IMG/VR virus record: IMGVR_UViG_3300036668_000436
Span: 1 to 50,860 of that record
DNA from: a virus
DNA length: 50,860 bases
Reading direction: 5' to 3' (one strand)
Shown one piece after another: positions 6,001-31,895 of the stretch; positions within the stretch are counted from its first letter, which is position 1; each line of letters opens with the position of its first letter. The notes below the pieces were generated by a model, which was not told the DNA's origin, made no database searches, and saw only the letters and a list, made by a program, of their open reading frames with translations. The translations under genes were made by a program, and so were the position numbers.

Positions 6001-7560
6001 GTAGAAGCTATTAAAAAAATACTTGCTTCATTAAATCCTGATTTAAAATCTGACAATCTTGCCGGAGCAGCACTTAATGAAATATTGAATTTTATTACAG
6101 AAGAATCTGAAATTAACAAGTCTAAAAAGCCTATCTTTGATGAATTTACAATCAGAGAAGATTCTGCTTTTGAACAAGAAATATTAGATAAAATGGCTAT
6201 GGAACAAGCTTATTTAGATTCTATGGGAGGAGATCCTTCTCAAAATTTAAGTAATGAAGGTGGAAGAGCTTATATGCCTGCTTACCAAAGTGAGGATAAC
6301 TTAAATTATCAATTAGATACTCAAAATAATGTACAAACAGCTATAAAAGAATTAGATAACTATTTATTAAAATTTTTAAAACAATTTAATGTTAAGTCAA
6401 AAGAATTTGAAGATTTAAAATCTAAACTTGGTGTAAATGCTTTAGGAGCAACAGATACATTAAATAAATTAATTTGGTATGCTAAAAATAGAAATGAAGA
6501 AACTCTTCCAGAAGAAGCTGCACACATGCTTGTGATGCTTATGGGAGAAAAAAATGCTGATATAAAAGAACTGTTAGAAAACATAGAAAATTGGAATGAA
6601 TATTCTGACATTGAACAAGAATATTTACCTATTTATAAAGATAAAGAAAAAGTAAAAATAGAAGCTATTGGTAAACTAATAGCTAAATCTTTAGTTTCTA
6701 ATTATAAAACTAATGGGATAGATAAAACAAAATTAGAAAAAGCATTACAAGGAATTAAAGAATTTATTAAATCTATTTTAGAAAATTTAACTTTTAGTGG
6801 CATATATCAATACAATCAATCAATAGCAGATAAAATTGCAATTAATGTATTGTCAGGAAATAAAGATTATATAAATAAAGTAACAAATAATAATTCTAAC
6901 GTAAACGTAGAAAAAGAATTAAAAAACAACCCTTTAGCACAAAATATAATTAATACTTTTTCTTCTCCTAATATTAAAATGACAGGTTCATTAGCAATTG
7001 CAGGAACTGAAAACATAAGAAGACCTGAAGGACAAGGAGTGCATGATTTAGATTTTAAAGTAAATAGCTTTAAAACATACGAAAATGAAGTACTATCTAA
7101 AATACCTGAAAATGCAGTTCCTGCACACTACGGATGGCACAAAAAAGATTATTCTACATTTGCTTATGTAATACCAAAAGAAGGATATACTATAAATGTA
7201 AAAGAAAGAAAAGATGACTTTAGCAATGGTTGGATTACAAAGTATGATGTACTTGATAACCAAGGAAACGTTGTACAAAGAACTCAAGATTTAGTAGTAT
7301 CTGTTGATTTCTTTGTCTATAAAGATAATGCAAGTCAATTAGATTTTAATTATGAAGGTAAATTTATACCAGCATCTTTAGTTTATGAAGGAAAAATGTC
7401 TTTAGGAGGAAGAAGTAACCCGTATTTTTTTAGTAGAGATAAAGATCAAGAAGATTATGTAGTAAGAAATCCTAAATCTTTTATTGCTTTTGAAAATAGT
7501 ACATTTTATCAATTAGAACCTACAAATAATAAATTACCAGAACCTAAAAATTGCAATTAA
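1..7560 (+). CDS. Giant virion RNA polymerase / polyvalent protein (5' end outside window)
   Basis: The reading frame is open from base 1, so the true start lies upstream; the first ATG here is at 34 (2,508 residues from it). Counting from that ATG, residues 934-938 read DYDVD inside GIDYDVDKE, preceded by a GFLPPEVGD stretch; this matches the DxDxD catalytic loop of crAss-like phage virion RNA polymerases (phi14:2 gp66 type). The rest looks polyvalent: HEVVH at 1876-1880 is a zincin metallopeptidase motif, EEAAH near 2160 is a second degenerate zincin-like motif, and a GSLAIAGTE...HDLDF segment near 2316-2343 resembles a nucleotidyltransferase fold. By family knowledge the protein is packaged and injected and transcribes early genes. 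Later domains are assigned by motif only. It is followed one base later by the next giant gene. Confidence 0.75.
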   Translation, partial: KLHPFGDLNNVMKALTTGEARFTAKTMSKSFRDAGKNVSGVTVPNYITNKIDDLKRSALTDQQYINDLMDISITKNSLFLNLLKNDPEFAGKFGVDYLGLTSFKEFGKKANGFSNLRDLNAIDHDMVKVTGLQDIQQGKVNIKVGGFSMRIGRMFLPTMSDKKQMLMLSTGVFNFMEESEDAFTQGENGEKTFTPQLRELLYEQLVLPELTRIFNFHKNIKKTNNNNYDRAAQIFNFIPALNNIKDSQGIRLIKHLAVADETVTLEQIEELFKPSMMDVVEEVAHNLAKEKMEIWKPAFTKSNAKGEITSIPLFDTKYLNSGVGALNDKFENGTYDYVLNYMITNANSFTTLSGDPAMYSQNKLFPTDTPYDIQDDNTFITISSKMGTNLGKRLALMIAPGVSIANSKDQKYLQVFLRDETAADKEVAANAEYLIKLYHGQEGLEKAQPILDKYKEYKQVGNVDGYITERNKLKAMFKDISDYFNIDATDGQEYTTITEHLIVLEGMGRLNAEQVKTIGNKLLANEVLTKEDLKLVMQPIKPVYSGHILDKDQDMSRAMYIKSSSFPLIPQVTVGTKFDGLRLKLEEMEATHGKSVRASYGSANKVGAVTNPIDIFNPESLKNADMSMLEMSRNDFRIQQDVPYKSDSKAEKVSMGTQIFKLLMGDGMMDLDGFVIDGKDMNGRELNKYFAESFEKLMSIKRNNLFKELGLNEEGNPINEKDSILKLQELLKKEAIKRDYPIQDIKGLELDTLYDTDGNEYQEFRVPLWLSTNSNRYESLLNSIVSNRLMKHKIPGTSFVLGAETGFGFKEDLTGIDKSRVIYLDNWNGKELQGVSDNEGTFTAAQVFVPSKFKISDTELIDLFEGFNATTGDVSKAKYLKRNENGSLGLKEGMIAPELLNQFSFRTPTSSHVSGSTIEIAGFLPPEVGDLMIVPKNFTKQKGIDYDVDKETAYQLNYVVDKETGKMTVLTEKDKDNALKSLRNLLEKEDAAINSEFGLPSLEDFYMLLGSQLDEKTISDLQDQGASIQSKIDKIEAMYDEKLMENNFIKAHLAVYNNANPKVQKKINKVLSMSFAENQADFIEGLNEEGRKDAIAKELVIKGMSLAEAEAESNTANNSFTILSDEYQKGKMALGAAGKTAIGIYSNYVTFHALTQQTDNKLNLREKVGKEFKNKEITIGNRKSTGELGLEFTLDSGRTIAEVLAERQNTATDNEKAQILGRVNINKLTIGVDSLLAILGFDKDESGNSVSYTLLSQPILKQYVKKMEEGKGITATYQANLEKTIIVDLVKQFTNGEYTVEIGADFYNFKDKENNIVNLESLLTGQSLENGIKYNGENGAVQLAALAKFLELDQYAKNITAVQSLLNTNNLGKSIIEANHTYERLENFPSNKLIANVTDLIGDFMPIEDAVDGKPDGYTLIGDYYVKAKTPQGQIVVQGLTTGQKLWGDYFPFNDNNFKEIIREILAISSKESISDFRNIELKQEIVQEAKKYIYSWRKFGVFNERAGVERERLFMDRPNKTSLANYMNSIQSNETIKDNRLLSKFTYEVNTDGQPSLIKFNNGISDNFDEQYLYNSLAEMIIEDTQLPDWNGTPMTSRLLAQELITYAYTEGGVQEAVQFIKYVPVEYLSEVGIFDNGRFVPANEVLQRMNPKRNSNAFAGVFGLNNLVKGDSRTHIFAKQFMQHHPERATQYPPKEILAKFAFENSDRKSFILNAEESPKFITIRGKGKLKQDKYRLYQHVGASQYKEISVLGVTGMNEYEMGNDDAQSILRAKVEPTSGVNPTGVIIPITMQPTINIAEGDSVKEALQKVITGNFPKYKHLNLVAEAILPMIDDNTTLLFEDTRSIFGGEGAAGVYDQERNAIVIDTRNALPRGNESTSRTFIHEVVHAISYRELLKYYDQTGTTLQSGAPAHVIALHNVWTAFRRTFTETELKDITEKLALLKAKLPVQFTQREIDLGYGATNIFEFMSVAMDSDVFKTEMSKVKYDANYNIYEKFVEAIKKILASLNPDLKSDNLAGAALNEILNFITEESEINKSKKPIFDEFTIREDSAFEQEILDKMAMEQAYLDSMGGDPSQNLSNEGGRAYMPAYQSEDNLNYQLDTQNNVQTAIKELDNYLLKFLKQFNVKSKEFEDLKSKLGVNALGATDTLNKLIWYAKNRNEETLPEEAAHMLVMLMGEKNADIKELLENIENWNEYSDIEQEYLPIYKDKEKVKIEAIGKLIAKSLVSNYKTNGIDKTKLEKALQGIKEFIKSILENLTFSGIYQYNQSIADKIAINVLSGNKDYINKVTNNNSNVNVEKELKNNPLAQNIINTFSSPNIKMTGSLAIAGTENIRRPEGQGVHDLDFKVNSFKTYENEVLSKIPENAVPAHYGWHKKDYSTFAYVIPKEGYTINVKERKDDFSNGWITKYDVLDNQGNVVQRTQDLVVSVDFFVYKDNASQLDFNYEGKFIPASLVYEGKMSLGGRSNPYFFSRDKDQEDYVVRNPKSFIAFENSTFYQLEPTNNKLPEPKNCN

Positions 7561-7561
7561 T

Positions 7562-10500
7562 ATGGGATGTGAAGTAACATTTAAAACCTTGAAAGATGAG
7601 GTAGGAAATAAGGTTAAGGCTATCTTAGAAGATGGTCTTAGCCTTAACGGTAAAGAAATTAAGTATGGTAGACAAAGTAGAGAAAGATCATTAGATGTTT
7701 TTGTACCTTTTGATTCTATACACCCTAGTACTGGAAATCTCTGGTATAAAATGAAAGAGGTAGCCACTAAGTTAAACAAAGAGTATCTTGCAAAAACTTA
7801 TGGAACTGTAGCTACTGTTAAACAACATTCTGATGGTGTTACTGTAATTATACATCCAGCAGGTAAGTTAGTTAGAGATATGAATGAAAAAGAAAGACTT
7901 AAAATTAAGCCTACTTTTGAAAGCATTACTAATGAATATGAGTTTGAAGGAGAAATTTACCCTTCTGTAGAAGAAAGAAGTAAAGCAATGGATCGTAAAA
8001 AACAAAATTTTTTACCTATGGCTTTTGCTAGTACTGGACCAACCAGTTATTTTAATACTACTAACTATGCAGATTATATTGAACACAAAGAAAATTTACT
8101 TAAAAATGTAATAAATCGCATAGGTAATCTTACTTCTGGTAGAAAGTATGATAACTCATTAGTTATTAAAAAAGAAATAGCAGCTTTAAACAAGCTTAAA
8201 GAAAATCTTGAAATAGAAACTAATGAGCTATTAAACTCTACTAATATCTTGGCAAGAACTATGTCTGCTTTTAATTCAGACTTAGCTTTTATAGACAAAT
8301 TATTGTCAAGTCCCACTCCTTCTTTAGAAAATATTCATTATGCAGAAGGTATGGTAAATTATTTTGAACTTATATCTGATTATAGTAAAAGCAATAAAGA
8401 TAATTTATTTGTAGTTCCCGGAGATTCTTCTACAATTGAACCTGATGTTCTTGACGTGCTTAACAAACTTAAATTAGATTTAGATGATAAAAGAACAGCA
8501 ATATATAATGCTAAATTAAATTACCTTGTTCAAGCAATTGAAGCTTCTGAAAACCTTAAAAGTTTGTTTCCAAATATGCAAGCTGAAGAAATTAGAGCTA
8601 TTATTTTAAAAGACACTTCTGATATTGGAACTTTCTCTAAATTATTTGCAACTGTAGATAAAGAATTTGGAGGAGATGATAGTATTTTAGCTGAACTTAT
8701 TAGAATTGAATTAGAAAGATCTAGAAATATTATTAAGCCACAAGCTGCAACTATTAGTCAAAAAATTACTGAAATTCAAGATAAAGTAAAAAGTAAACTT
8801 ATTGAAAAAGGTAAAGGAATTACTTATGGTCTTGTTAATAAACTTTTTTCTGAAGTAACCTATGATATGTTTTATCAAAAAACAGGAAGAGGAAATAAAA
8901 CAGGAAACTTAATTAGTAAATTTTCTACTCAATGGTATAAAGATATTTCAAATATTGTCAGAAATAACAAAGAAGCTATGCAAGCTGCTTGGGCATTACC
9001 TGATGTTAGAGATATGCAAAAAGCTTTAAATGATGCTTTAATAAACAAATACAACTCTTTGAATGATAAAGTGGATTTTGTTCAACTTGGGAAATTACCA
9101 GAAATTATTAACAATCCAGATTTTCAAATATTAAATAAATATTTTAACCCTGCTGAAGCTGATTTATATAAACAACAACTTATTGATAGTATAGGAGAAT
9201 ATGCTTACAATAAAATGGTAATATCTCAAAAAGAAGCTCTTGAAGATTTTATGGTAGCTGTCGTCAATGAGAAACAACATTTATTAGATATTAATGGAGT
9301 TAGAAACTATGCAGATTTAGAACCTGGAATTAAAATGCATTTTGAAATATTTCAAAAAAGAAATAATCCTTTTGAATTTATTGAGTCTCATTTAAATGGA
9401 CAAGAAGGCAGAATAGATCACGTTTGGGGAACTTCTGGAAATCAATACCAATCACATTTAAAATATAATACTTACACTCCTAAAAAAGAAGTGAGTAGTT
9501 TTGATATGAACACTGGCACTTTTTATCAAGAAGATTCAGGATATTTTGATAAAGGTTTTGATGAAATTCAAAATGATCCCACTCTTTTAGAATTTTGGGA
9601 AATTATGGCTGAAGCTACAGAATACATGAATAGTGCTTTAACTGATTCTAACACTAATTTATCTCATACTTCATTACTTAAGATGAGTAAATCAATGACA
9701 GATATACTTTTTGATAGACAATTAGGTGTAATGAATAAAAGTGTTCATTTATTAAGTGAAACTGGTCAATCTTTAAAAAATATGATGTCAGCTAATGTTT
9801 CAAATAAAAGAGCTAATGATGTCACAGAAGTAAATAAAGCAGGTATTGAAACTGTTCAAGAAGAAGTAAAAATGCGATTTAAAACTTTTGACAGAATATT
9901 TGAAGTAAGGACAGGAAAACCTTTAGGGGAAAAAAGTTTGACAGATTTAAGTAAGATGACCTTAGATCAAAGAGATTTAATGGAGCAGTTAACAGGATTA
10001 AATCAAGCAGAATTAATTACAACGTATGGTAAAAAAGCTAATTTATCTAGTATTGTAAAAGAGTTTTTTACTAATCAAATAATGGAAGAGCAAACATTTA
10101 ACTTACCGGTAATGATGAAATCTTATCTTGATGTTGTAAGTGAATATAAAGCACAAAAAGCTTCTTTACCTAAAATCAACATATATAAAGATATATATGA
10201 CAATATTCAATTAGATAAAAATAGTAAAAAAGGTTTACTTGAAGATACTTTAGATTTAGCAGCTAGAATACGTAAAAAACAAAGATATAGTGGTATTCAA
10301 GACAAAAGAGTAAGGGGACAAGAAAGAACTCAAAATTGGATTAATAAGAATGTTAAAGGTGTTGAGGATAGTGAATATTGGGTAAAATTTGGTAAAAATC
10401 TTAATGAAAAGCAAAAAGAATATGAAAAAGCTACCGAAGCTTATCTTAAAAAATTAAAAAATGACCTTGCTGTAGCTACTTCTAAAGATGCTGAAATAGC

Positions 10501-12400
10501 TATAGAAAAAGAAATAGCAGATGTAGAACACGAATTAGATAATTTAGGTAGAGTTTACACAGGAGCTGCTATTTACAATGCAGTAATTAATAGATTAGGA
10601 GTATTTGTAGGGTTAGCTTATAATATACCTTCTCAATTTTTTAATAGGTATCAAGGTTGGCATCAAGGAATGATAAATGATACAGGAAGGTATTGGACAC
10701 CAGGAAACTTTTATGCTGCAAATGCTTTCATTAATAGGAAATTTATGGGTAAATTAGGTTTTAATAAACAAAAACAAGAAATCAGAAAAGTAAAACTACT
10801 TACTGAAAAAATGGGGTTTATTCAAGACAATACTAATGAATTAGATAGAGCAAGAAGAGAATCTGGAGTTACAGGTTGGACTAGAAAATTAAATCCTTTT
10901 TATCTTACTGAGTATGTAGAATGGCATAATCAAGTTCCACAAGCACTTTCTATTTTAATGGACCAAAGAATTATAAGTACTGAAGTTGATAGTGCAGGTA
11001 ATCCTATTGTAGTACCTATATTTGATGGAAATTCTCAATCTTTTCCTGCTCATACTATTAAAGATGGTAAATTAGTTCTTAAAGATGCTTTTAGAACACC
11101 AGAAAACATTGCTACTTGGGAAAGTTTTAGTAATGAAAAATATGCACAAGTAAAAGGTAAAATCACTGAAACTATTGCACTTTTAAATGGAGATTATACA
11201 AAAACAGGTAACACAGAAATTAAAAGTTATACATTAGGTAAAACTTTTATGATGTTTAAAACCTGGATGTCTAGCCAAATGTTTTTAAGATTTGCTAAAA
11301 ATCAAACTAGTGTAACACTTGGAATTAAAGATTTTGATGGGGCTTATGCAGGAGGACTTAGTAACGTAAAAACTAATGTTGCAGCTACTTTTGGTTTGTC
11401 TTTAGTTTTAGGTGTAGGAGCACTTACAACATTAGGACTTCCTTTAGCTGGAACTACTGTTGGAGGACTTGCAATTTACAGTGTTCTAAAAAACAGAAAG
11501 AAAAACAGAGTAAATGGACAAAACTTAGAAATGTTAAAACAACTTTATGGAATGGGAAAAGCTATTGTAAATAAAATGATAGGACTTCCTGTAAATACTT
11601 TATCTGGTAAGAATTTAATTAAAGCTCACACTTTTAAAGAACTTAATGTAACAGAAGCCGACAGACAAAATCTTAATTTTATTGTTAATGAGTTGGTAGC
11701 ATTACTTTGGATGTTACTTGTAAAAGTTATTATTAAAAATATGAAAGGAGATGATGAAGAAGAAGAACCTAAAACTTTAGACGGAAAAACTCCTAATCCT
11801 GCTTATTATACTCAAGAAGATAAAGATAGTAAATGGATTTTACTTGAAAATATGATTACTAGATTAATTCAAGAAGGTAGTACTTTTACTAATGCTGAAG
11901 CTTTATATAAATCTGCAACACCGGCGGGTATAGATAGTTTTTTTACTAAAGTAGCAGATTTAACAGTTGGACTATATAATGTATATCAAGGTTCAGATGT
12001 AATTACATCAGGAGATAACATAGGAGAATCTAAAACTGGCAATGCCCTTAAAAAGTTTGTAGTTCCAGGAATTATAAATGAATTTACAGATGGAAATTTT
12101 GATAGTGCAGGTTTTAGTAAGTATGAAAAAAAAGATTGGAATCCTAATGAATTTTTAGATAATGCTTATACAACAGACTATAAAAGAGATTTAAAAATTA
12201 TTGATGGAGAAAGAGCTGTATTAAGAGCTGAACTTACTTTATATTGGAATGAAGAGTATGAAATGAATGAAATAGAAGATACTTACACTAAAAAAACTTT
12301 AGAAGAAGAAATTACAAAAAGAATAAATGAAGAAGTAAATGCTACTTATCCTCGTAAAATTAGACTTATGTATGATGAAGATCAACAACTCATAGAATAA
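7562..12400 (+). CDS. Giant virion-associated protein, probable ejected cargo partner of the RNA polymerase
   Basis: This 1,612-residue protein starts at an ATG one base after the RNA polymerase stop, so the two are translated together. It is mostly charged, helix-rich sequence with coiled-coil-like stretches and no enzyme motif I recognise. Two hydrophobic segments lie near residues 1273-1308 (rich in Gly, Leu, Val, Ala) and 1370-1395 (LLWMLLVKVII), followed by an acidic DDEEEE patch. In crAss-like phages the genes beside the polymerase encode large cargo proteins stored in the tail or capsid and injected with it. A role in ejection or membrane passage is inferred from position, size and hydrophobic segments. 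It is the last gene before the terminator. Confidence 0.6.
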   Translation: MGCEVTFKTLKDEVGNKVKAILEDGLSLNGKEIKYGRQSRERSLDVFVPFDSIHPSTGNLWYKMKEVATKLNKEYLAKTYGTVATVKQHSDGVTVIIHPAGKLVRDMNEKERLKIKPTFESITNEYEFEGEIYPSVEERSKAMDRKKQNFLPMAFASTGPTSYFNTTNYADYIEHKENLLKNVINRIGNLTSGRKYDNSLVIKKEIAALNKLKENLEIETNELLNSTNILARTMSAFNSDLAFIDKLLSSPTPSLENIHYAEGMVNYFELISDYSKSNKDNLFVVPGDSSTIEPDVLDVLNKLKLDLDDKRTAIYNAKLNYLVQAIEASENLKSLFPNMQAEEIRAIILKDTSDIGTFSKLFATVDKEFGGDDSILAELIRIELERSRNIIKPQAATISQKITEIQDKVKSKLIEKGKGITYGLVNKLFSEVTYDMFYQKTGRGNKTGNLISKFSTQWYKDISNIVRNNKEAMQAAWALPDVRDMQKALNDALINKYNSLNDKVDFVQLGKLPEIINNPDFQILNKYFNPAEADLYKQQLIDSIGEYAYNKMVISQKEALEDFMVAVVNEKQHLLDINGVRNYADLEPGIKMHFEIFQKRNNPFEFIESHLNGQEGRIDHVWGTSGNQYQSHLKYNTYTPKKEVSSFDMNTGTFYQEDSGYFDKGFDEIQNDPTLLEFWEIMAEATEYMNSALTDSNTNLSHTSLLKMSKSMTDILFDRQLGVMNKSVHLLSETGQSLKNMMSANVSNKRANDVTEVNKAGIETVQEEVKMRFKTFDRIFEVRTGKPLGEKSLTDLSKMTLDQRDLMEQLTGLNQAELITTYGKKANLSSIVKEFFTNQIMEEQTFNLPVMMKSYLDVVSEYKAQKASLPKINIYKDIYDNIQLDKNSKKGLLEDTLDLAARIRKKQRYSGIQDKRVRGQERTQNWINKNVKGVEDSEYWVKFGKNLNEKQKEYEKATEAYLKKLKNDLAVATSKDAEIAIEKEIADVEHELDNLGRVYTGAAIYNAVINRLGVFVGLAYNIPSQFFNRYQGWHQGMINDTGRYWTPGNFYAANAFINRKFMGKLGFNKQKQEIRKVKLLTEKMGFIQDNTNELDRARRESGVTGWTRKLNPFYLTEYVEWHNQVPQALSILMDQRIISTEVDSAGNPIVVPIFDGNSQSFPAHTIKDGKLVLKDAFRTPENIATWESFSNEKYAQVKGKITETIALLNGDYTKTGNTEIKSYTLGKTFMMFKTWMSSQMFLRFAKNQTSVTLGIKDFDGAYAGGLSNVKTNVAATFGLSLVLGVGALTTLGLPLAGTTVGGLAIYSVLKNRKKNRVNGQNLEMLKQLYGMGKAIVNKMIGLPVNTLSGKNLIKAHTFKELNVTEADRQNLNFIVNELVALLWMLLVKVIIKNMKGDDEEEEPKTLDGKTPNPAYYTQEDKDSKWILLENMITRLIQEGSTFTNAEALYKSATPAGIDSFFTKVADLTVGLYNVYQGSDVITSGDNIGESKTGNALKKFVVPGIINEFTDGNFDSAGFSKYEKKDWNPNEFLDNAYTTDYKRDLKIIDGERAVLRAELTLYWNEEYEMNEIEDTYTKKTLEEEITKRINEEVNATYPRKIRLMYDEDQQLIE

Positions 12401-23867: not shown

Positions 23868-25112
23868 TTAGTTATATACTTTGTCCCAGTCTAATTTTAA
23901 AGGCTTACTTTTAGCTTCTTGAATTATTTTATCTTCACTGTAACCATTTTGATTATAATAAAGATGTAAATTCATAAGTTGGGCAACACCTAAAACTTCT
24001 CTTTGAAGCTGAACACTTGACTGTATATTTTTAACACCGTCAAAAAGTAAATCAGAAACTACAAAACAAACTTCTTGCCTTCCAGACTTTCCTGTTGCTA
24101 AGAGTTCTTCAGTACATTCAAAAACCAAAGGACTACCAGGAAAATTACTACTTTCAACTACAAAAATAAAAGGCTTTAACACCCCTGGATCAACAATATT
24201 AAAAGCTTGCATAAGAGCTAAGTTATACCATACAGCTTGAATGTCATATCTCCTTTGTCTTACAGAAGAAGGAAAATACAAAGTATTTCCATCCATAGTT
24301 TTAAGATCAATACCTGTGACTGCTTGAATAACTCCTTGTCTATCTTTTACAACTACTACCATGTCAAGAAGAGCTTTGCAATTAATTGTAAAACCATCTT
24401 CTGTTAAATATTTAAAAGCAAGGGGCAATTGATAAAACACTTCAAGACTGTCATTAGTTTCAAAAGATTCTTTGTCAAAGAAATGTTGAGTTCTGTGGTG
24501 TGTTTTTAAAGATTGTACAATACTTTGAATTCTTTCAAAAGTGGTGGCATCAATAACAGTTCTACCATAGCAAGAAAGTAAATCTTTAAAGTATTCACAA
24601 GCTGCTGGTGTAGCTAAATTTTTAAGTTTAGCTGCATCACCCCATTTAGGGTTATATTCTGTCATTTCAGAAGCATTAAGTATGTAAATTTCCCTTTCTG
24701 CATAGTTACCACCAAATTCTACTAAAGTACTTGTTTTTTCTTGTTCTATAGAATCTTGAGTAATTACAATAGAAGTATCAGTTTCTACATAAAAAGCTTC
24801 TGTTTTAAGTTGAGTGGTTAAATACTCTTGGTAATCTTCAACTACCATTTCATAAACTATGTTTAAAACTTTTAGTACAGCTTCAGTAGGTTTAACTTCT
24901 GATTTAGAAACATAATAAGTTTCATTAAACTCTTCTTGTGTACCTAAAAGTAAACAATCTACTGCTGAACCTACTATAAAATGAGGTTTATTACTGTCCT
25001 CTACAGCATCAAAAGTATGTGGACCTACAATTAATTTTTTTAATTTTGATTGATTAAGAAAGTCCAACTCTCTATATTCCTGAATCTGTTGCTTCGTTGC
25101 TATTGTTAACAT
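23868..25112 (-). CDS. PD-(D/E)XK exonuclease, RecE/YqaJ-like
   Basis: The catalytic block is CKALLDMVVV (Asp) followed by GIDLKTMDG (D-x-K) and the family helix RYDIQAVWYNLAL (Q-x-x-x-Y), with GSAVDCLLLGT near the N-terminus resembling the first helix of RecE-type exonucleases. Length (414 residues) fits. It would degrade one strand of dsDNA ends in recombination. It overlaps the resolvase-like gene by 41 bases. The substrate specificity cannot be read from sequence. Confidence 0.8.
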   Translation of the reverse strand: MLTIATKQQIQEYRELDFLNQSKLKKLIVGPHTFDAVEDSNKPHFIVGSAVDCLLLGTQEEFNETYYVSKSEVKPTEAVLKVLNIVYEMVVEDYQEYLTTQLKTEAFYVETDTSIVITQDSIEQEKTSTLVEFGGNYAEREIYILNASEMTEYNPKWGDAAKLKNLATPAACEYFKDLLSCYGRTVIDATTFERIQSIVQSLKTHHRTQHFFDKESFETNDSLEVFYQLPLAFKYLTEDGFTINCKALLDMVVVVKDRQGVIQAVTGIDLKTMDGNTLYFPSSVRQRRYDIQAVWYNLALMQAFNIVDPGVLKPFIFVVESSNFPGSPLVFECTEELLATGKSGRQEVCFVVSDLLFDGVKNIQSSVQLQREVLGVAQLMNLHLYYNQNGYSEDKIIQEAKSKPLKLDWDKVYN

Positions 25113-25611
25113 TAGGATGTTCTTTTAAGATTATGTTATTTTTAAAATTTTCTACAGTAATGCAAACTATAGTTTTAAACTGTGAAAACAAATCAAATTT
25201 AAACTCTTTTAAAGAGATATATTCAAGTTTTGCTCCATTGTTATTAAACAAGTTAAATTGCTGTAAAGACATATAAACTAGATCATCAAGATCAGTTCTT
25301 CTGTAACCTTCTGCCATTTTTCTATGAATAAGAATACATGGCTTTTTAAAAACTTCATTCTCTGGAGGAAACATCACATTAATAGACGTTTCCATACTAA
25401 ACAGTTCTTTACCAGGATTCATGGTGGAATGTTTTCCTGTTTTAATCTGAATGTTGTACGGAATGTACATTAAATCAATTTTAGCATTGTCATGCTTTCT
25501 ACTTGCTTGACGTGACGTCTCGCAAAATGTAAATCCTAAGGCACGAAAAAAGTTAGCATAGTACCTTTCTCCATTGTGCCCTCGAGTTTTGTTAGTTTTA
25601 CCTGAACCCAT
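25072..25611 (-). CDS. PD-(D/E)XK endonuclease, Holliday junction resolvase-like
   Basis: The active site reads E15 in GERYYANFF, D46 in KIDLMYI, and Q55-I-K57 in NIQIKTG, the E...D...QxK pattern of Hjc-type resolvases. The N-terminus is basic (GKTNKTRGHNGER). At 179 residues it is close to the family size with a C-terminal extension. It would resolve branched replication intermediates before packaging. It is the first of the recombination pair (overlap 41 bases with the exonuclease). Confidence 0.78.
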   Translation of the reverse strand: MGSGKTNKTRGHNGERYYANFFRALGFTFCETSRQASRKHDNAKIDLMYIPYNIQIKTGKHSTMNPGKELFSMETSINVMFPPENEVFKKPCILIHRKMAEGYRRTDLDDLVYMSLQQFNLFNNNGAKLEYISLKEFKFDLFSQFKTIVCITVENFKNNIILKEHPNVNNSNEATDSGI

Positions 25612-25668: not shown

Positions 25669-26466
25669 TCAATCTAAATCATCCCAATAAAGGGCTGTTT
25701 CATGAGAATCTTCATTTTCCATTACGTTATCTTCTACAATTTCATCAAAACTATCTTCTAAATGTACTGGTAATGGTGGAGCTACCAAAGATAAAGGATA
25801 ATCTTGAGTTCTAAACAATTCTTCATTAGTCATAAAAATATGCTGTACATCATTGTTTAAATGATCTTGTAGTTGAGTAATAGAATTAAATGCTACTTTA
25901 AAACTGTTTGCAAAGGTATTCTTTTTGATAATAGACGCAGAAATTATCCGCATTTCTATACCTTTTTCAAAGCAAAAGTTTAAGTAAATTTTTTGTAATC
26001 TTCTGTAAAATACAGAGTATTTAGAATTTGATACCAGTTCTGTAGAAACAAACATTATAAACTTATGATAATCTATATTGTCTGTATTTGAAAAATCTGA
26101 TTTACTCATTTCTTTTAACGGAAAATCATAATTTAATTCTTCTTGTTTTAAAGTAAGACACATTAATACTTGTCCTGAATCTTTATCTATAATAAGACCT
26201 TTACCTATAAGAAGATTTAATCCGTTAGTCACTGTCTGTACTAAAGTGGCGTAAGATGTTAAAATAAGAGAAAGTCTAGAAGAAGTGTTAGGTATACTAG
26301 AATAGCTTTCCTCTTTTGAATAAGGAAAATTGTAAACACTGTACAGATTATTTCTCTCAAGATACCCTAATACATAAATCGGTACAAAATCTACAGAAAC
26401 AGCAAGACAAGGTTCATCACCTTCTACAATTATGGATCCTCTATAATGATGAGTAATTAATTTCAT
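25669..26466 (-). CDS. Unknown protein in the Ub-like cassette, possibly PRTRC-B-like (265 aa)
   Basis: I do not recognise a firm family. The protein starts with beta-rich sequence (THHYRGSIIVEGDEPCLAVSVDFVPIYVLGYL), has a central helical part (RRLQKIYLNFCFEKG) and a very acidic C-terminal tail (DSFDEIVEDNVMENEDSHETALYWDDLD). Its only support for function is position: it starts one base after the E1-like gene stop, as PRTRC-B sits beside the ThiF and JAB genes in PRTRC cassettes of bacterial plasmids. That correspondence is inference. Confidence 0.5.
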   Translation of the reverse strand: MKLITHHYRGSIIVEGDEPCLAVSVDFVPIYVLGYLERNNLYSVYNFPYSKEESYSSIPNTSSRLSLILTSYATLVQTVTNGLNLLIGKGLIIDKDSGQVLMCLTLKQEELNYDFPLKEMSKSDFSNTDNIDYHKFIMFVSTELVSNSKYSVFYRRLQKIYLNFCFEKGIEMRIISASIIKKNTFANSFKVAFNSITQLQDHLNNDVQHIFMTNEELFRTQDYPLSLVAPPLPVHLEDSFDEIVEDNVMENEDSHETALYWDDLD

Positions 26467-26467
26467 A

Positions 26468-27166
26468 TCAATCTTGTTCTATAGTTAAACTAATAGGTAC
26501 AATGTATTCCCAGAAAAAAGGACTATTTCTCATTGTATCTCTTTCATAAATGTTAGCTATATGATTGGTAAAAAAACCTATCATGTGAGTAGCTATCATT
26601 GCAGCGGTGTGTGAAGTTTGTTTCATTGTACAAGGAGCATCTTCTATAAGGCTGTCATCAAATAACCTTGCTTCATAGTCTGCTATCCTATCCGGAGTAA
26701 CAACAAAAATTTGAAGATGTTCCATTTCAAGTCTACCATCAATAAAAATAGGAGTTACAATTGAACCAGGAATACTTTTTTTCCAAACTTCAAACAAATC
26801 TTTTCTAGCTTTCATATTGTCAAAAGCTGAAAACACAAAATGATGTGTAGGAGTATTTTCATCTACTTTTACATTAAATCCTGTAATGTTTATATCACAA
26901 AAATCTCTACAAATAGATGACATAGCATTTACTTTATGTGTTCCTACATCAATACTTCTAAAAAGTTGACCACCTAAATTATGAGGTTCAATTGTGTCAA
27001 AATCGTACACAATAGGTATATAACCAATTTTAGCAAGAAAGAAAACAAGCCAAGAACCAATACCTCCACAACCTCCTACTAAAATATTCTCTTGTCCTTG
27101 AGGAAACCATGGAGCTCCTTTAAATCTATCAAATCTTTGTTCCATTTTCTTTAAATTTTCTAACAA
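26468..27166 (-). CDS. E1-like ThiF-family adenylyltransferase
   Basis: The ATP-binding Rossmann motif is GGCGGIGSWL (residues 31-40), followed by YDFDTIEPHNLGGQLFR with the conserved D55/D57, N63, Q67 and R70, and then DVGTHKV, as in ThiF/MoeB/E1 enzymes. A candidate catalytic Cys is in DAPCTMKQTSHTAAMIA. These proteins adenylate the C-terminus of a ubiquitin-like partner. At 232 residues it is a minimal E1 without UFD. It lies between the JAMM gene (38-base overlap) and the unknown 265-residue gene in one operon. Confidence 0.85.
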   Translation of the reverse strand: MLENLKKMEQRFDRFKGAPWFPQGQENILVGGCGGIGSWLVFFLAKIGYIPIVYDFDTIEPHNLGGQLFRSIDVGTHKVNAMSSICRDFCDINITGFNVKVDENTPTHHFVFSAFDNMKARKDLFEVWKKSIPGSIVTPIFIDGRLEMEHLQIFVVTPDRIADYEARLFDDSLIEDAPCTMKQTSHTAAMIATHMIGFFTNHIANIYERDTMRNSPFFWEYIVPISLTIEQD

Positions 27167-28304
27167 TTGCTTTTAATAAAACAATAGTTGGGTTAGTAAT
27201 GTCTGAATACCCTACTAAAGTTTCCCCTAGAAATATTACAAGTTGTTCAGTATAATCTATAAAATCTTCATCTAAAGTTTCATCTGCAAACAATTCTGCA
27301 TAAACTTCTGCGTAGTTATCTCCAACAGTTTGAGCAATTTCTATAGGATCAATTTCTTCCAATGCCATATAAACATCTTCTAAATCTTCTAAATCTTCAA
27401 GTTTAACATCCTCAGTTTTTTCAAGGGCTGTTTTAAATAAAAGAATTGCAAAATTTGTCAATATCTCTTCAATATCAAATAAAGCATTAACAGGGTAAAC
27501 AAAGGATTTGTTAAAAGTTTTAGTAAAAGCAATTCTATCTACTACCTGTTTTGTTAAAGGAGTTTTTGGAAGAGTAATAAAAGGTGCAACGTAAGATTTT
27601 ACAGGAGTAATTGGTACTACAGGAATAATAACCTTAGGTTTAAATAACTCTTCTACTTTTTCACTAAATTTGTCATCCACTTTTTTAAGAGTTTTTGGAA
27701 ATCTAATTTCAGTATCATACCAATACATTGCTTCTTCTTTTACAACATAAGATATTTTATCAATAATATATTCCTGTCCTTTTTCATTAGTAGCTTTAAA
27801 AAGTACTACAGTAGAAGGCATATTACCAGTAGAGTAAATAGCTACCCTAGCTTCAAACTCATCCCTATTGTTGACAATTAGAGATAAATAAAAATTATGC
27901 TGTGGACAATTGTCCATAAGCTCTTGCTCATCTGTTCCAGAGAAAAAAGTTCTCATATTGTGATGAGAGTGTACATGACCTACTTTCCAACCCATTCTTA
28001 CTTCAGGATCTTCCATAAGATAATCTATGAATCTTTCATCAAATTCATAAGAAGTGAATCCAGTAGTTCCTTTATCTAAAGGTAAAATATCTTCAATGTG
28101 AAGTTTAAGTTTTTCTGGTTTATTAATAGAACCTCTCATGCTATAAAAAAGTACTCCTGACCATTCTACAGTATTAATCTTGCTACATAAAAAATGTATT
28201 TTATCTAGAATTTGTTGAGATAAGATTACGGGAATTGTGGTATCTAATTGCACTTGCTTTAAGTGCTTGACTTTTAAGTTGCTGTTCAAGGGTGGTGTGT
28301 ACAT
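27129..28304 (-). CDS. JAMM/MPN+ metalloprotease (JAB domain) with C-terminal extension
   Basis: The JAMM zinc site is complete: E47 in TVEWSG, then H112-S-H114 with seven residues to S122-x-x-D125 (HSHHNMRTFFSGTD), the HxHx7SxxD signature of deubiquitinase-like proteases. Residues 130-391 form an extra region with an acidic helical stretch (KLEDLEDLEDVYMALEE). It would cleave ubiquitin-like tags or precursors. The first 34 codons overlap the E2-like gene by 104 bases; a later GTG codon (residue 18) is an alternative start but the catalytic E47 needs a start before it. Confidence 0.88.
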   Translation of the reverse strand: MYTPPLNSNLKVKHLKQVQLDTTIPVILSQQILDKIHFLCSKINTVEWSGVLFYSMRGSINKPEKLKLHIEDILPLDKGTTGFTSYEFDERFIDYLMEDPEVRMGWKVGHVHSHHNMRTFFSGTDEQELMDNCPQHNFYLSLIVNNRDEFEARVAIYSTGNMPSTVVLFKATNEKGQEYIIDKISYVVKEEAMYWYDTEIRFPKTLKKVDDKFSEKVEELFKPKVIIPVVPITPVKSYVAPFITLPKTPLTKQVVDRIAFTKTFNKSFVYPVNALFDIEEILTNFAILLFKTALEKTEDVKLEDLEDLEDVYMALEEIDPIEIAQTVGDNYAEVYAELFADETLDEDFIDYTEQLVIFLGETLVGYSDITNPTIVLLKAIVRKFKENGTKI

Positions 28305-29403
28305 ATTTTACAAAATTAGGGTACAATTCGTACTCGTTAATATTAGGGGCAATAATTTTTTCTTTTCTATTTCTATTTTTAACTTTAAAAGGAATTTTTA
28401 ATCCATTATAAATAGTAAAAGGAGTTTCTTTATTTACATTGTCAACATGTTGATCTTCTAGTTGAATTTTTTTTTGGGCATTATAAGGATAGTAAAAATT
28501 ACCATCAAATTTACAAAACAACTCTCCACTGTGTGTAAGATCAAGAATAGCTAATGTTTGTTCTCTTACAAATTGTTTAAACATAGAATTAAACTGTATT
28601 TTATACATATTTCCTTCTAAATAATAATCTACATTTACAGGAGCTTTTACTAGTTGTTCAAATACATGTTTAGCATAACCTCTGTATTGACTAACTGATA
28701 AACTAAAGGTTTTAACTGTAGGTTCTACAATTCTATTAATGTAATTATAAGGTCCTCCTTGTTCACTTTCACATTCTACAACACTATCTTGACAATATAG
28801 ATAAGCTTGAAAAACTTCTTCATCAAACTCTAAAGACAACTCTCCTAACATTCTACTAATATCAGAATCTGAACCTAAACAAAAGTTATCTATGTAGAAA
28901 GGATTAGTATTTGCTTTATAACTTCTTAAATGACTGTGTATATATTCTTGATAAGTTTCTTCTTTAAGTACACTAGCTCTACCTCCTTTCATTCCATTAA
29001 AAAATATTGAATTACTTGTAATATCAATACTATTAACTACTATCAAATCTGTAATTAAATGTGAAGTTTTAGACTCATATCTGTGAATAGTTACATCATT
29101 AATAGTTACAAAATAAACAGAAAAAGAATTATGCTGTGGTTCATAATGAAGGTCCCAAGCATCTCCAAATTTATCTTGATAAGCATCAATCATTTTATAA
29201 AGAAGTCTTTCATACTCTTCTCCAAGTAGTGTGTATTCTCCATCTTCTTTTATTGGAGTTTCTGAAGGAGAAATAATTTTACCACTTGCAATCATTTTAG
29301 CCAAAAACTTTTTAGTCTTAGCATAATTCATAAGTTTAGCATTATAAACTATGTTTTGCCAACTTGTTCCCCAATACTTATTGTTGTACATTAAATTGTT
29401 CAT
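28201..29403 (-). CDS. E2-like (UBC/RWD-type) conjugating enzyme candidate (400 aa)
   Basis: The middle of the protein has an E2-like layout: strand and loop region LITDLIVVNSIDI, then YIHSHLRSYKANTNPFYIDNFCLGSDSDI with C175 in FCLG after an HSHL motif, comparable to the HPN...G-x-xCLG catalytic Cys region of E2 enzymes. A RASVL stretch precedes it. The N-terminal ~90 residues and C-terminal ~200 residues (including LKVKNRNRKEK) are unassigned. E2 identity is inferred from this motif and from the flanking JAMM, E1 and Ubl genes; a structure prediction would decide. Confidence 0.6.
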   Translation of the reverse strand: MNNLMYNNKYWGTSWQNIVYNAKLMNYAKTKKFLAKMIASGKIISPSETPIKEDGEYTLLGEEYERLLYKMIDAYQDKFGDAWDLHYEPQHNSFSVYFVTINDVTIHRYESKTSHLITDLIVVNSIDITSNSIFFNGMKGGRASVLKEETYQEYIHSHLRSYKANTNPFYIDNFCLGSDSDISRMLGELSLEFDEEVFQAYLYCQDSVVECESEQGGPYNYINRIVEPTVKTFSLSVSQYRGYAKHVFEQLVKAPVNVDYYLEGNMYKIQFNSMFKQFVREQTLAILDLTHSGELFCKFDGNFYYPYNAQKKIQLEDQHVDNVNKETPFTIYNGLKIPFKVKNRNRKEKIIAPNINEYELYPNFVKYVHTTLEQQLKSQALKASAIRYHNSRNLISTNSR

Positions 29404-29418
29404 ATTGATAAAAAAAAT

Positions 29419-29452
29419 AAAAGGTAAAGAAATTAATATCTCTTTACCTTTT
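29419..29452 (-). terminator. Strong intrinsic terminator between Ubl and E2-like genes
   Basis: A 12-bp perfect stem (AAAAGGTAAAGA / TCTTTACCTTTT) with a 10-base loop, followed on the minus strand by T-rich sequence. It lies after the stop of the Ubl-like gene, so it should give more Ubl-like transcript than enzyme transcript, as suits a substrate protein. Confidence 0.85.
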
Positions 29453-29476
29453 TAATTTAAAACTAGAAAATAACTC

Positions 29477-30112
29477 TTACTTTCCAAATAATCTTTTAGC
29501 CATTCCGGCTAACATGTCTGTTTCTTCTTCATCCTTATTTACAACAGGGTCAGGGTAAACAACAGACTTTTCTGAGTTTGGTATTGCTTTTGCAATATTT
29601 TCTGACTCAGTTTTAGAAACTTTTTCAACCTTTGCAACTTCTTTTGCAGGAGTTTCTTTGATGGCTTTTTTAGGGTCTGCTAAAGCAGGTTCAAAAGTTT
29701 TACCGGCAATGTGTTTTTTATGAAAAGCTTCCAATACAGGAGTTTTCATTTGAGTTACATTACCCCCCAATTTGTTTTTTAACTCTGGCTGGGCTGTAAT
29801 AGCTTCTTTTATTGCTGCAAACAACTCTTTTCTATCTAAAGGATAGTCTGCCCCTGACTTGGTGTCAATAGGAGTTAAAATAAGATAAAAAGCTGAAATA
29901 GGTAAAACCGCTTCATCAATTTCAAATCTTACTTTGTTTGTTGTTTCAGTAGCCTTAAATTTGTCTGCATCAATACCTAAGTTCTTGATTTCTTTTTTCA
30001 ACTGTCCGTAAGTAGTTGCAGTTGACATTAAATTATCTTTTACTCCTGTTTTTGTGGAATAAAGAGTAATTTTTCTTACTTCTTGTACTTGTTCTTGATT
30101 CTCTGCACTCAT
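29477..30112 (-). CDS. Ubiquitin-like beta-grasp protein candidate with long tail (211 aa)
   Basis: Residues about 12-88 read like a beta-grasp domain: RKITLYSTKTGVKDNLMS, YGQLKKEIKNLGI (helix), KFKATETTNKVRFEIDEAVLPISAFYLILTPIDTKSG. I recall this arrangement (KITVY...ATxGELK...LxP...FxxxLxPxxTKSG) from phage proteins described as ubiquitin-like. The rest is a Pro/Lys/Glu-rich disordered tail ending ETDMLAGMAKRLFGK; there is no terminal Gly-Gly, but the JAMM protease could process the chain. Its terminator-isolated position upstream of E2, JAMM and E1 genes supports the substrate role. Confidence 0.65.
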   Translation of the reverse strand: MSAENQEQVQEVRKITLYSTKTGVKDNLMSTATTYGQLKKEIKNLGIDADKFKATETTNKVRFEIDEAVLPISAFYLILTPIDTKSGADYPLDRKELFAAIKEAITAQPELKNKLGGNVTQMKTPVLEAFHKKHIAGKTFEPALADPKKAIKETPAKEVAKVEKVSKTESENIAKAIPNSEKSVVYPDPVVNKDEEETDMLAGMAKRLFGK

Positions 30113-30132: not shown

Positions 30133-30870
30133 TTACCAATTAATTGATTTTTTACCTGATTTCTCAAGTATTCTATTAGCTAAATAGAAATGATCACAAC
30201 CATAAAACCCTCCATCTTTAACGAAATATTCTATTAAAGGATGTTCTGCTTTAAGAATGTAATTGTATTCTGGATTCATAGGAATATTTTCAATAAGTTG
30301 TCTATTATAGCCAATTACATTAAATTTACTCTTAGGAATCATTTGTGTAGTAAGAGCTTGAGTATATTTTCCCCAAAGCATCCAAATAGTAGGCTGATTT
30401 ATAGCTATGTATTTTACTACTTGCTTTGTAAATTCTTGCCAATGTTTTAAATGACTGCCCTGCATCCCTGCTTCTACAGTTAATGCTGTATTCAATAAAA
30501 ACACTCCTTGCTCTTCCCAGTGCTCAAGTGTTTTCCAATTGCCTAGTTTTCCTCCTAAGTAATCTGTACCATTATCAATAGTATTAAGTATTTCTTTTTG
30601 AATACTGACTAATGATGGGGTAGTTTTTACATTTTTACTCACTGCAAAAGCTAAACCAGTGGCGTAATTAGGAGAATAATGAGGTTCTTGATCTATTATA
30701 ACAACCTTAATTTGATCTAAAGGCATTTGAAATACCCTGAAAATATTTTGTACTTCAGGATAATAATGACAATTAAGTAAAATGTCATTGTTTAAAGATA
30801 AAAGAGGTTCTTGATTCAAATATCTTAACAAAGAGTGCCAAGAACTATGGACTTTATCTATAGGATTCAT
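30133..30870 (-). CDS. ung: Uracil-DNA glycosylase (family 1) with altered active-site motif
   Basis: The fold blocks are clear: VVIIDQEPHYSPNYATGLAFAV (water-activating loop), VFLLNTALTVEAGMQGSHL, PTIWMLWGKYTQ, and the C-terminal KAEHPLIEYFVKDGGFYGCDHFYLANRIL with the conserved His. The canonical GQDPYH is DQEPHY here (D60-Q-E62-P-H64-Y65), so the catalytic Asp is a Glu and the HPSPLS loop is HPLIEY. It may remain active or have become a uracil-binding processivity factor, as in some viruses. It sits next to the primase gene (4-base overlap). Confidence 0.82.
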   Translation of the reverse strand: MNPIDKVHSSWHSLLRYLNQEPLLSLNNDILLNCHYYPEVQNIFRVFQMPLDQIKVVIIDQEPHYSPNYATGLAFAVSKNVKTTPSLVSIQKEILNTIDNGTDYLGGKLGNWKTLEHWEEQGVFLLNTALTVEAGMQGSHLKHWQEFTKQVVKYIAINQPTIWMLWGKYTQALTTQMIPKSKFNVIGYNRQLIENIPMNPEYNYILKAEHPLIEYFVKDGGFYGCDHFYLANRILEKSGKKSINW

Positions 30871-31895
30871 GTAAATTGATTTAAAAATTGAACTAATATT
30901 TCTTTGCCCTGCTCTTTGTACAAATCAGAAGGATCTGTAATTTTTTGAGAGTATAGTATCTCTGGCAACCAAAGAGCTTTTGCCTTATTGGAATACTCTA
31001 CATTTAAGAGTGCAGTTAACTTAAGAGAAGCTTCTATTCCTGTTGCATCGTTGTCAAAAAAAATTATGACTTCTTTCCAATGCTTTACTAAAATAAATAA
31101 TTTTTCCAAAGGAAACATTCCTTCATTTTGTAGGTATATTGCATGTTTACCTTGATTTTTCAATACTCTCCAATCTTTGTAAGATTTAGTAATAATCAGT
31201 TGTTTACCAAATGGAGCTAAAGTGGAAATACCACCTATATCCTCTTTAGTACAAGTAGTAATAAACCTATCTTTACCTTTTCTATGTGGAAAATATAACT
31301 TTTTTCTCCCTTCAAGGTAATTAGTATCTGCATAAGCTATATCATAGCATTGATTACTAAAGTTACCTTTTTTAGTGTTTAAAGCGTGAAAAACAGAAAT
31401 TGCAAAGTACTTATCTTCTACTAACTGAGAAGAAGAAATGCCGTAAGGAGTCCAAAATTGAGCATCTTTTAAAGTAAATTGTCTAGGTTCAATAAGAATT
31501 TTAACAGGTATTTTTTCAATCTTTTTAGAAACTTCTAACTTTCTAGTTTGTAAAACAATTTCTTTACCTGCTATTAATCTATCATAAATAAATTGTAACG
31601 TAAGATAAAAGTTAGAAAGTTGAAAATAATCTTGTACAATATTAAAACAATCACTGTGTGTTCTTATAGTAGAACCAAAATCTACAAAATACCAAATGCC
31701 ACTAACATGTTCAATAAAATAACAACCGGGTTGTGTATCTTTTCTAAATGGAGAAGTTGTCCATTGTAAATCCTGTGGAATAAATCCAAAAACTAATTCA
31801 AATATATCTAATTGAGACACTGAATCAAGAATACCTTTTTTATCAATAAAACCCTTTTTATCTAAATTGTCACTTTGAAAGTTATAATTTTGCAT
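30867..31895 (-). CDS. DnaG-like primase with TOPRIM domain
   Basis: The N-terminal module has SPFRKDTQPGCYFIEHVSGIWYFVDFGS (DnaG-type zinc-binding-domain fold, without four Cys ligands), then a linker, and a TOPRIM fold with LIITKSYKDWRVL (residues 233-245) and IIFFDNDATGIEAS (DNDxxG, 281-286). The position of the TOPRIM glutamate is Lys here. At 342 residues it is a short phage primase that makes RNA primers for the family A polymerase. The DnaB-like helicase lies 2.3 kb downstream in transcription terms. Confidence 0.82.
   Translation of the reverse strand: MQNYNFQSDNLDKKGFIDKKGILDSVSQLDIFELVFGFIPQDLQWTTSPFRKDTQPGCYFIEHVSGIWYFVDFGSTIRTHSDCFNIVQDYFQLSNFYLTLQFIYDRLIAGKEIVLQTRKLEVSKKIEKIPVKILIEPRQFTLKDAQFWTPYGISSSQLVEDKYFAISVFHALNTKKGNFSNQCYDIAYADTNYLEGRKKLYFPHRKGKDRFITTCTKEDIGGISTLAPFGKQLIITKSYKDWRVLKNQGKHAIYLQNEGMFPLEKLFILVKHWKEVIIFFDNDATGIEASLKLTALLNVEYSNKAKALWLPEILYSQKITDPSDLYKEQGKEILVQFLNQFT

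Follow-up and report, generated by a model that had tools for sequence, protein, structure and literature searches.

The known bacterial systems that conjugate ubiquitin-like (Ubl) proteins, Bil and type II CBASS, are host defences. In Bil, BilC cleaves BilA and frees the Gly of BilA (PMC11354881). The PRTRC system, set 6d of Iyer et al. 2006 (PMC1779556), comprises PRTRC-C (Ubl/Prok_Ub), PRTRC-B (Prok-E2_D), PRTRC-A (Prok-JAB), and PRTRC ThiF; on plasmids, its genes were found in the order ParB, E, C, F, B, A, and ThiF, where C was Prok_Ub, B was Prok-E2_D, and A was DUF2016 plus Prok-JAB. Here, a five-gene cassette is described in the 50,860-base virus record IMGVR_UViG_3300036668_000436, the whole of which is called the window below. 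The genes encode a Ubl precursor, an E2-like protein, a JAMM metalloprotease, an E1/ThiF-like enzyme, and the product of a fifth gene, gene X (Table 1). We consider it probable that the cassette is a self-contained protein-modification module of the phage, and that its likeliest role is conditionally needed counter-defence or infection protection through the tagging of a protein of host or phage.

The E1 was matched by tblastn to 29 Flavobacterium psychrophilum phage records (62.5% identity) and to many Steigviridae and other gut phages (crAss001, DAC15, DAC17, Kolpuevirus, cr85, cr106, cr111, cr112, cr126, and cr128). The same five-gene neighbourhood was present in crAss001 (gp79-gp78-gp77-gp76-gp75), FpV4, cr111_1, DAC15, Dulem virus 41, and bajarodcaudo virus 1, and an IMG/VR scan yielded 80 further cassette loci. 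Conservation was assessed across 86 viral loci, cultured Flavobacterium phages (FpV4) and crAss001 included. The order Ubl - E2-like - JAMM - E1 was kept in 82 of them, and the remaining four contigs stop within the E2-like gene. With this order kept across loci and the catalytic residues listed below invariant where untruncated, the cassette is far beyond chance. Its carriers are a virus family infecting Bacteroidota, with cultured human-gut phages of the crAss001 type among them. On a host-borne origin of the cassette, which was set aside, a scan of bacterial genomes gave three E1 relatives, located on short metagenome-assembled contigs. In the jumbo Xanthomonas phage PhiXhv-12 (L099:2322-5696), a hypothetical protein of 892 amino acids (aa) adjoins distant ThiF/E1 and topoisomerase genes.

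Loci were also collected by their primase, which avoids the bias of finding them by E1. This primase-anchored sample comprised 42 loci whose downstream sequence reached 5.5 kb or more; 33 of them had all five genes, nine had none, and partial sets were absent. The four enzyme and modifier families are present together or not at all; the modifier has a predicted ubiquitin fold, and the catalytic residues are conserved. At exactly the cassette slot, the nine cassette-less loci carried rIIA (GHKL ATPase; phrog_612, 2e-60, down to 4e-65) and rIIB (phrog_609, 1e-29). When cassette and rII loci were compared pairwise, the primase, uracil-DNA glycosylase (UDG), RusA, and exonuclease were retained on both sides. 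Neither rIIA nor rIIB was found in any of the 86 cassette loci, no rIIA was detected when 18 cassette contigs and five complete cassette phages were scanned over their full records (positive controls 7/7), and no E1 in the nine rII records. The complete Steigviridae genome cr116_1 had rIIA-rIIB between primase and UDG, without E1 or JAMM, and looks like a further case of the swap; crAss001 and FpV4 scored as expected in the same comparison. In cr116_1 (MT774389.1, L184:7965-12121), rIIA is seemingly split by an intron-encoded endonuclease, and the primase is annotated as two pieces. On the primase tree, from which cr116_1 was absent, at least six changes between the cassette and rII states were counted, three of them forced by well-supported branches. 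The exchange has happened several times.

An essential function of the cassette was rejected, since relatives do without it. In diverse phages, rII modules act against RexAB immunity and can be dispensed with where it is absent (PMC11879866; also PMC9391042). Because the module and rIIA-rIIB have repeatedly taken each other's place in a single replication-block slot, counter-defence is taken as its most likely role; interference with host defence of the CBASS/Bil type had been one of the suggestions of an earlier sequence-only reading of the window, and its general counter-defence side gains unexpected support from the swap.

All 33 loci of the primase-anchored sample with a complete cassette had gene X, which was absent from each of the 12 rII-bearing loci. 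It is a possible adaptor or substrate of the tagging module, i.e., it may select the Ubl target or be one. At one locus, a homing-type endonuclease gene is situated between E1 and gene X (L158:12208-13020); a gene X-like protein of the rII locus L160 was rejected as gene X, as it matches this endonuclease.

The cassette lies in the replication block, as the sequence-only reading had it, with primase and UDG upstream and a RusA-like resolvase and exonuclease downstream; the minus strand of the window also codes for a polymerase, helicase, ligase, and thymidylate synthase. Primase was upstream of the cassette in 80 of the 86 loci and the PD-(D/E)XK exonuclease downstream in 63, and UDG flanked it on either side (29 loci upstream, 23 downstream). 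Nearly all relatives have the cassette between primase and RusA/exonuclease in their replication operon, a setting that would also suit a cassette that tags phage replication or recombination proteins and regulates the replisome instead of host defence. Plasmid PRTRC systems adjoin ParB, which fits the same idea, as does the presence of replication functions among the middle genes of crAss001 (PMC10136315), because of which middle expression of the cassette is expected. Regulation of the replisome is nevertheless unlikely, though worth keeping in view, as the module is dispensable and nine relatives and cr116_1 have rIIA-rIIB in its place. The crAss001 virion atlas (PMC10172136) does not name the cassette proteins in its main text.

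The ubiquitin fold of the 211-aa protein, previously only presumed, was predicted for its N-terminal domain by AlphaFold2 and Foldseek. The AlphaFold2 alignment had 58 rows, with rows from annotated phages left out. The model had a predicted local distance difference test score (pLDDT) of ~95 at residues 11-80 and low confidence from ~81, where S86-G87 sit, and it consisted of strands 13-19 and 25-30, helix 35-44, and strands 52-56 and 75-81. Its Foldseek matches in PDB were nearly all Ubl domains (ubiquitin, ISG15, SUMO1, NEDD8, UBX, and MoaD), mostly at probability 1.0, with a template modeling (TM) score by target of at most 0.75 for ubiquitin and a single match passing an E-value of 0.001. 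G87 was the sole residue invariant in all 82 homologues. Nine homologues of 76-91 aa stop 1-5 aa past it (KSG/E, KSG/I, KSG/F, SG/NKN, etc., the slash following the Gly), and the others have tails of 54-221 aa after the Gly. Judged from these sequences, the protein has the anatomy of a Ubl precursor, with an invariant Gly and natural ends just after it. Two hallmarks of a Ubl modifier were found, a modelled beta-grasp fold and a conserved Gly closing the domain; a third, covalent attachment to other proteins, is predicted. The model contained one Ubl domain only, so the tandem domains of BilA were not seen.

Alternatively, the protein could be a sulfur carrier of the ThiS/MoaD type, for which E1 and JAMM make a thiocarboxylate used in nucleotide or cofactor modification, with C175 of the E2-like protein as a sulfur-relay Cys. 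The E1 is of ThiF/MoeB grade, and comparable Ubl-JAB-E1 sets are known (PMC1779556). We regard this as improbable: no sulfurtransferase, rhodanese, or thiolation partner was found beside the cassette in the window or annotated beside it in GenBank phages, a dedicated protein with an invariant Cys and a fifth gene accompany the cassette, and the Ubl fits ubiquitin, ISG15, and SUMO better than MoaD. In databases, the E1 relatives are mostly labelled 'thiamine biosynthesis protein' or hypothetical. A role in thiamine biosynthesis was rejected for lack of pathway partners, and the label, carried by crAss001 gp76 (L004:5560-6711) and the FpV4 E1 (L002:5992-6678), is probably wrong. The crAss001 E1 has a long additional N-terminal region.

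For the proposed protein-tagging module, the E1 and JAMM assignments were borne out by conserved site residues, the ThiF match of the E1, and weak matches of the JAMM protein (Pfam Prok-JAB, 0.002; PADLOC JAB, 0.0017). Residues R14, G32, G34, D57, N63, K78, D116, and C179 of the E1 were kept in every untruncated locus, and the set in the window (R14, GCGGIGS, D55, N63, Q67, K78, D116, and C179 in CTMKQT) was invariant or nearly so. The protein therefore has the GxGGxG, D, N, K, D, and catalytic Cys of E1/ThiF adenylating enzymes, without the Arg of NxxRQ. Aligned with PRTRC ThiF in hhalign, the E1 profile gave a probability of 98.9% (2.1e-17) and placed C(T/S)xKQ on PSCS; the match to TIGR03736 (PRTRC ThiF) was 8.3e-09, at 35 bits vs a cut-off of 145. 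In the JAMM protein, E47, H112, H114, S122, and D125 were kept in every untruncated homologue, giving the E...HxHx7SxxD zinc site of JAMM/MPN+ proteases. Another possibility is that the proteins serve as decoys or antagonists, jamming the Ubl enzymes of host Bil or CBASS and running no cycle of their own. The distant similarity of the E1 to the CBASS E1-E2 and BilD models of PADLOC, and a slot shared with rII counter-defence genes, are in keeping with it; the catalytic residues, needless in a decoy, are all retained, and we think this explanation very improbable.

The 400-aa protein, the weakest assignment of the cassette, would act as the E2 of the module. Its invariant residues were S157, H158, C175, G177, E212, S213, and G216, in the consensus Y-x-H-S-H-L-x(n)-F-C-x-G. 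The AlphaFold2 model (pLDDT 86) had helix 60-79, strands 84-89, 94-108, 113-128, and 133-142, a loop with HSH and C175, and helices 181-191 and 195-210; this alpha-beta4-alpha-alpha arrangement is the UBC element order with longer strands. In BFVD, every significant Foldseek match was a phage protein of unnamed function, close relatives among them. At rank 23, a CBASS-E2 protein of a phage was disregarded (probability 0.23).

The proposed cycle has four steps. JAMM would cut the Ubl precursor after G87, leaving a C-terminus ending in KSG. The E1, to judge from its invariant residues, would adenylate the Ubl Gly with ATP and then hold the Ubl as a thioester on C179. In the weakest step, the Ubl may pass to C175 of the E2-like protein and then to a target amine. 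Finally, JAMM could take the Ubl off the target again.

Several points weigh against this reading. Conjugation by the cassette is a prediction, and its targets, host or phage proteins, are hypothetical. The Arg of the canonical N-x-x-R-Q motif of E1 is replaced by Gly (74) or Asn (11) and is never Arg. For the E2-like protein, UBC was not among the best 50 Foldseek matches listed from PDB or BFVD, no PDB structure matched significantly, and Pfam (58 members), PADLOC, and a PDB profile search gave nothing significant for an E2. When it was aligned with eight PRTRC-B sequences in hhalign, CxG landed on CxG at a probability of ~1%, and unrelated controls did equally well. The swap shows mutual replacement in one slot, which does not imply the same job, and the slot is perhaps a recombination hot spot. 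In a shuffle test of the E2-like protein against PRTRC-B, one of 200 column-shuffled profiles reached the observed score, yet primase and JAMM controls scored alike, and the test was set aside as no evidence. Of the E2 proposed in the sequence-only reading, the invariant Cys, the HSH motif, its position, and the topology fit, while the UBC fold was not confirmed by Foldseek, Pfam, PADLOC, or the PRTRC-B profile. The wider proposition, that lytic Bacteroidota phages, including common gut crassviruses, run a full cycle of Ubl conjugation and deconjugation as a counter-immunity device interchangeable with rIIA-rIIB, is tentative, with the balance slightly against it.

Table 1. Positions of the cassette genes, predicted functional sites, flanking genes, and rII homologues (window positions, except those given with a locus number)
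Feature	Positions	Strand	Details
Ubl precursor	29,477-30,112	minus	211 aa; beta-grasp domain ~residues 11-82, S86-G87, then 124-aa C-terminal tail
E2-like protein, probably transferring the Ubl (fold unconfirmed)	28,201-29,403	minus	400 aa; phrog_15310
JAMM/MPN+ metalloprotease, predicted Ubl-maturing and deconjugating	27,129-28,304	minus	391 aa; site residues, Prok-JAB
E1/ThiF-like Ubl-activating enzyme	26,468-27,166	minus	232 aa, TTG start; Pfam ThiF 2.3e-16
Gene X, fifth cassette member	25,669-26,466	minus	265 aa; phrog_15446
G87 codon, predicted point of JAMM processing and E1 activation (TKSG/ADY)	29,852-29,854	minus	invariant; short homologues
HSH motif 156-158, at E2 HPN-like position	28,930-28,938	minus	S157 and H158 invariant; 9-36 residues before Cys
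C175 codon, predicted E2 catalytic Cys in FCLG	28,879-28,881	minus	85/85 where residue present
HSHx7SxxD zinc site of JAMM	27,930-27,971	minus	motif and conservation
C179 codon, predicted E1 thioester Cys	26,630-26,632	minus	85/85 where residue present; aligns to CS of PRTRC ThiF PSCS
DNA primase (Toprim), fixed upstream flank	30,867-31,895	minus	phrog_12622 7.5e-86
Uracil-DNA glycosylase (UDG), cassette flank	30,133-30,870	minus	NCBIfam uracil-DNA glycosylase 2e-42
RusA-like Holliday junction resolvase, downstream flank	25,072-25,611	minus	phrog_244 3.3e-06
PD-(D/E)XK exonuclease, downstream flank	23,868-25,112	minus	phrog_412 2.4e-31
rIIA-rIIB homologues, crAss-like/Fipvunavirus-like phages	L142:8617-12106, L159:8791-12292, L160:7958-11392		at cassette slot

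The five minus-strand open reading frames (ORFs) were recovered at exactly the coordinates that the sequence-only reading had given (25,669-30,112). Its account of three overlapping or abutting junctions also held: E2-like and JAMM overlap by 104 bp and JAMM and E1 by 38 bp, and E1 and gene X are 1 bp apart. So did its motifs, FCLG with C175, HSHx7SxxD (H112, H114, S122, and D125), and GCGGIGS. Elsewhere in the window (34-12,400), two giant plus-strand ORFs of 2508 and 1612 aa matched phrog_16227 (virion structural protein) and phrog_14721 in a crAss-like arrangement; they are of virion or unassigned type. The record is about half as long as related complete genomes.

No earlier description of a phage Ubl cascade or cassette was found in the open-access literature, the crAss-like phage survey PMC7886860 included; subscription papers and preprints were outside the search. 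So far as these searches go, a conserved virus-owned set that comprises a modifier, an E1, a JAMM, and a probable E2 would be undescribed. The cassette is present in cultured phages (crAss001, DAC15, and FpV4) and hence open to deletion or knock-down, and its swapping with rIIA-rIIB offers a separate approach to a question decades old, the function of rII-type modules across diverse phages. The finding would also correct a misleading 'thiamine biosynthesis protein' label in widely used gut phage genomes.

Among known systems, the resemblance to PRTRC that the sequence-only reading had noted stood for the gene order and failed for the Ubl and E2-like sequences. The core order Ubl - E2 - JAB - E1 is collinear with C-B-A-ThiF, the E1 is homologous by profile match, and both share the HSHx7SxxD JAMM site, CxG at the E2 Cys (PRTRC-B), and a Ubl with a C-terminal Gly. 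Unlike PRTRC, the phage cassette has no recognised PRTRC-F, PRTRC-E, or ParB homologue and has primase and UDG there instead; its E1 is without the RQ Arg, its Ubl is usually long-tailed, and it belongs to lytic phages. Prok_Ub was not among the families listed for 58 Ubl members (hhalign 0.05%; a true PRTRC-C scores 6e-26), nor Prok-E2_D among those listed for 58 E2-like members. In the PRTRC-A test, the phage JAMM showed no DUF2016 and reached 12.8 bits vs 101.8 with TIGR03735. On a Tunicatimonas pelagia plasmid (L087:6204-6941), a gene annotated as 'hypothetical protein' was recognised as PRTRC-B Prok-E2_D (3.5e-26).

Lambda TAPI/TAPK likewise have phage-encoded Ubl and JAB domains (PMC1779556); they are tail-assembly genes without E1 or E2, whereas the cassette is in the replication block. 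Type II CBASS has Cap2 (E1-E2) and Cap3 (JAB), families distantly related to the phage E1 and JAMM; in the phage, E1 and E2-like proteins are separate, the Ubl is dedicated, and no CD-NTase or effector was found among the scanned neighbours. The rIIA-rIIB pair of T4-type and other phages is similarly a dispensable module, in the same slot between primase-UDG and RusA-exonuclease, but its proteins are unrelated to those of the cassette; RIIA is a HATPase, and the pair counters RexAB (PMC11879866). On Crinalium plasmid pCRI9333.03 (L102:2995-6240), ThiF, two small genes, a UBC-type E2, and an MPN protein stand in a row, another bacterial Ubl-type operon, whose E2 had no further tblastn match in the plasmid collection. 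Bil (BilABCD) resembles the cassette in encoding its Ubl, E2 (E2-like in the phage), JAMM deubiquitinase, and E1 separately, by four genes. Its BilA contains two Ubl domains, and a CEHH motif is found in BilB, whereas the phage has one Ubl domain, HSH...CxG, and gene X, and PADLOC gave no Bil match for the phage Ubl or E2-like protein; moreover, Bil belongs to the host and the cassette to the phage. The cassette is not filed as a PRTRC member; on paper, it works like PRTRC or Bil.

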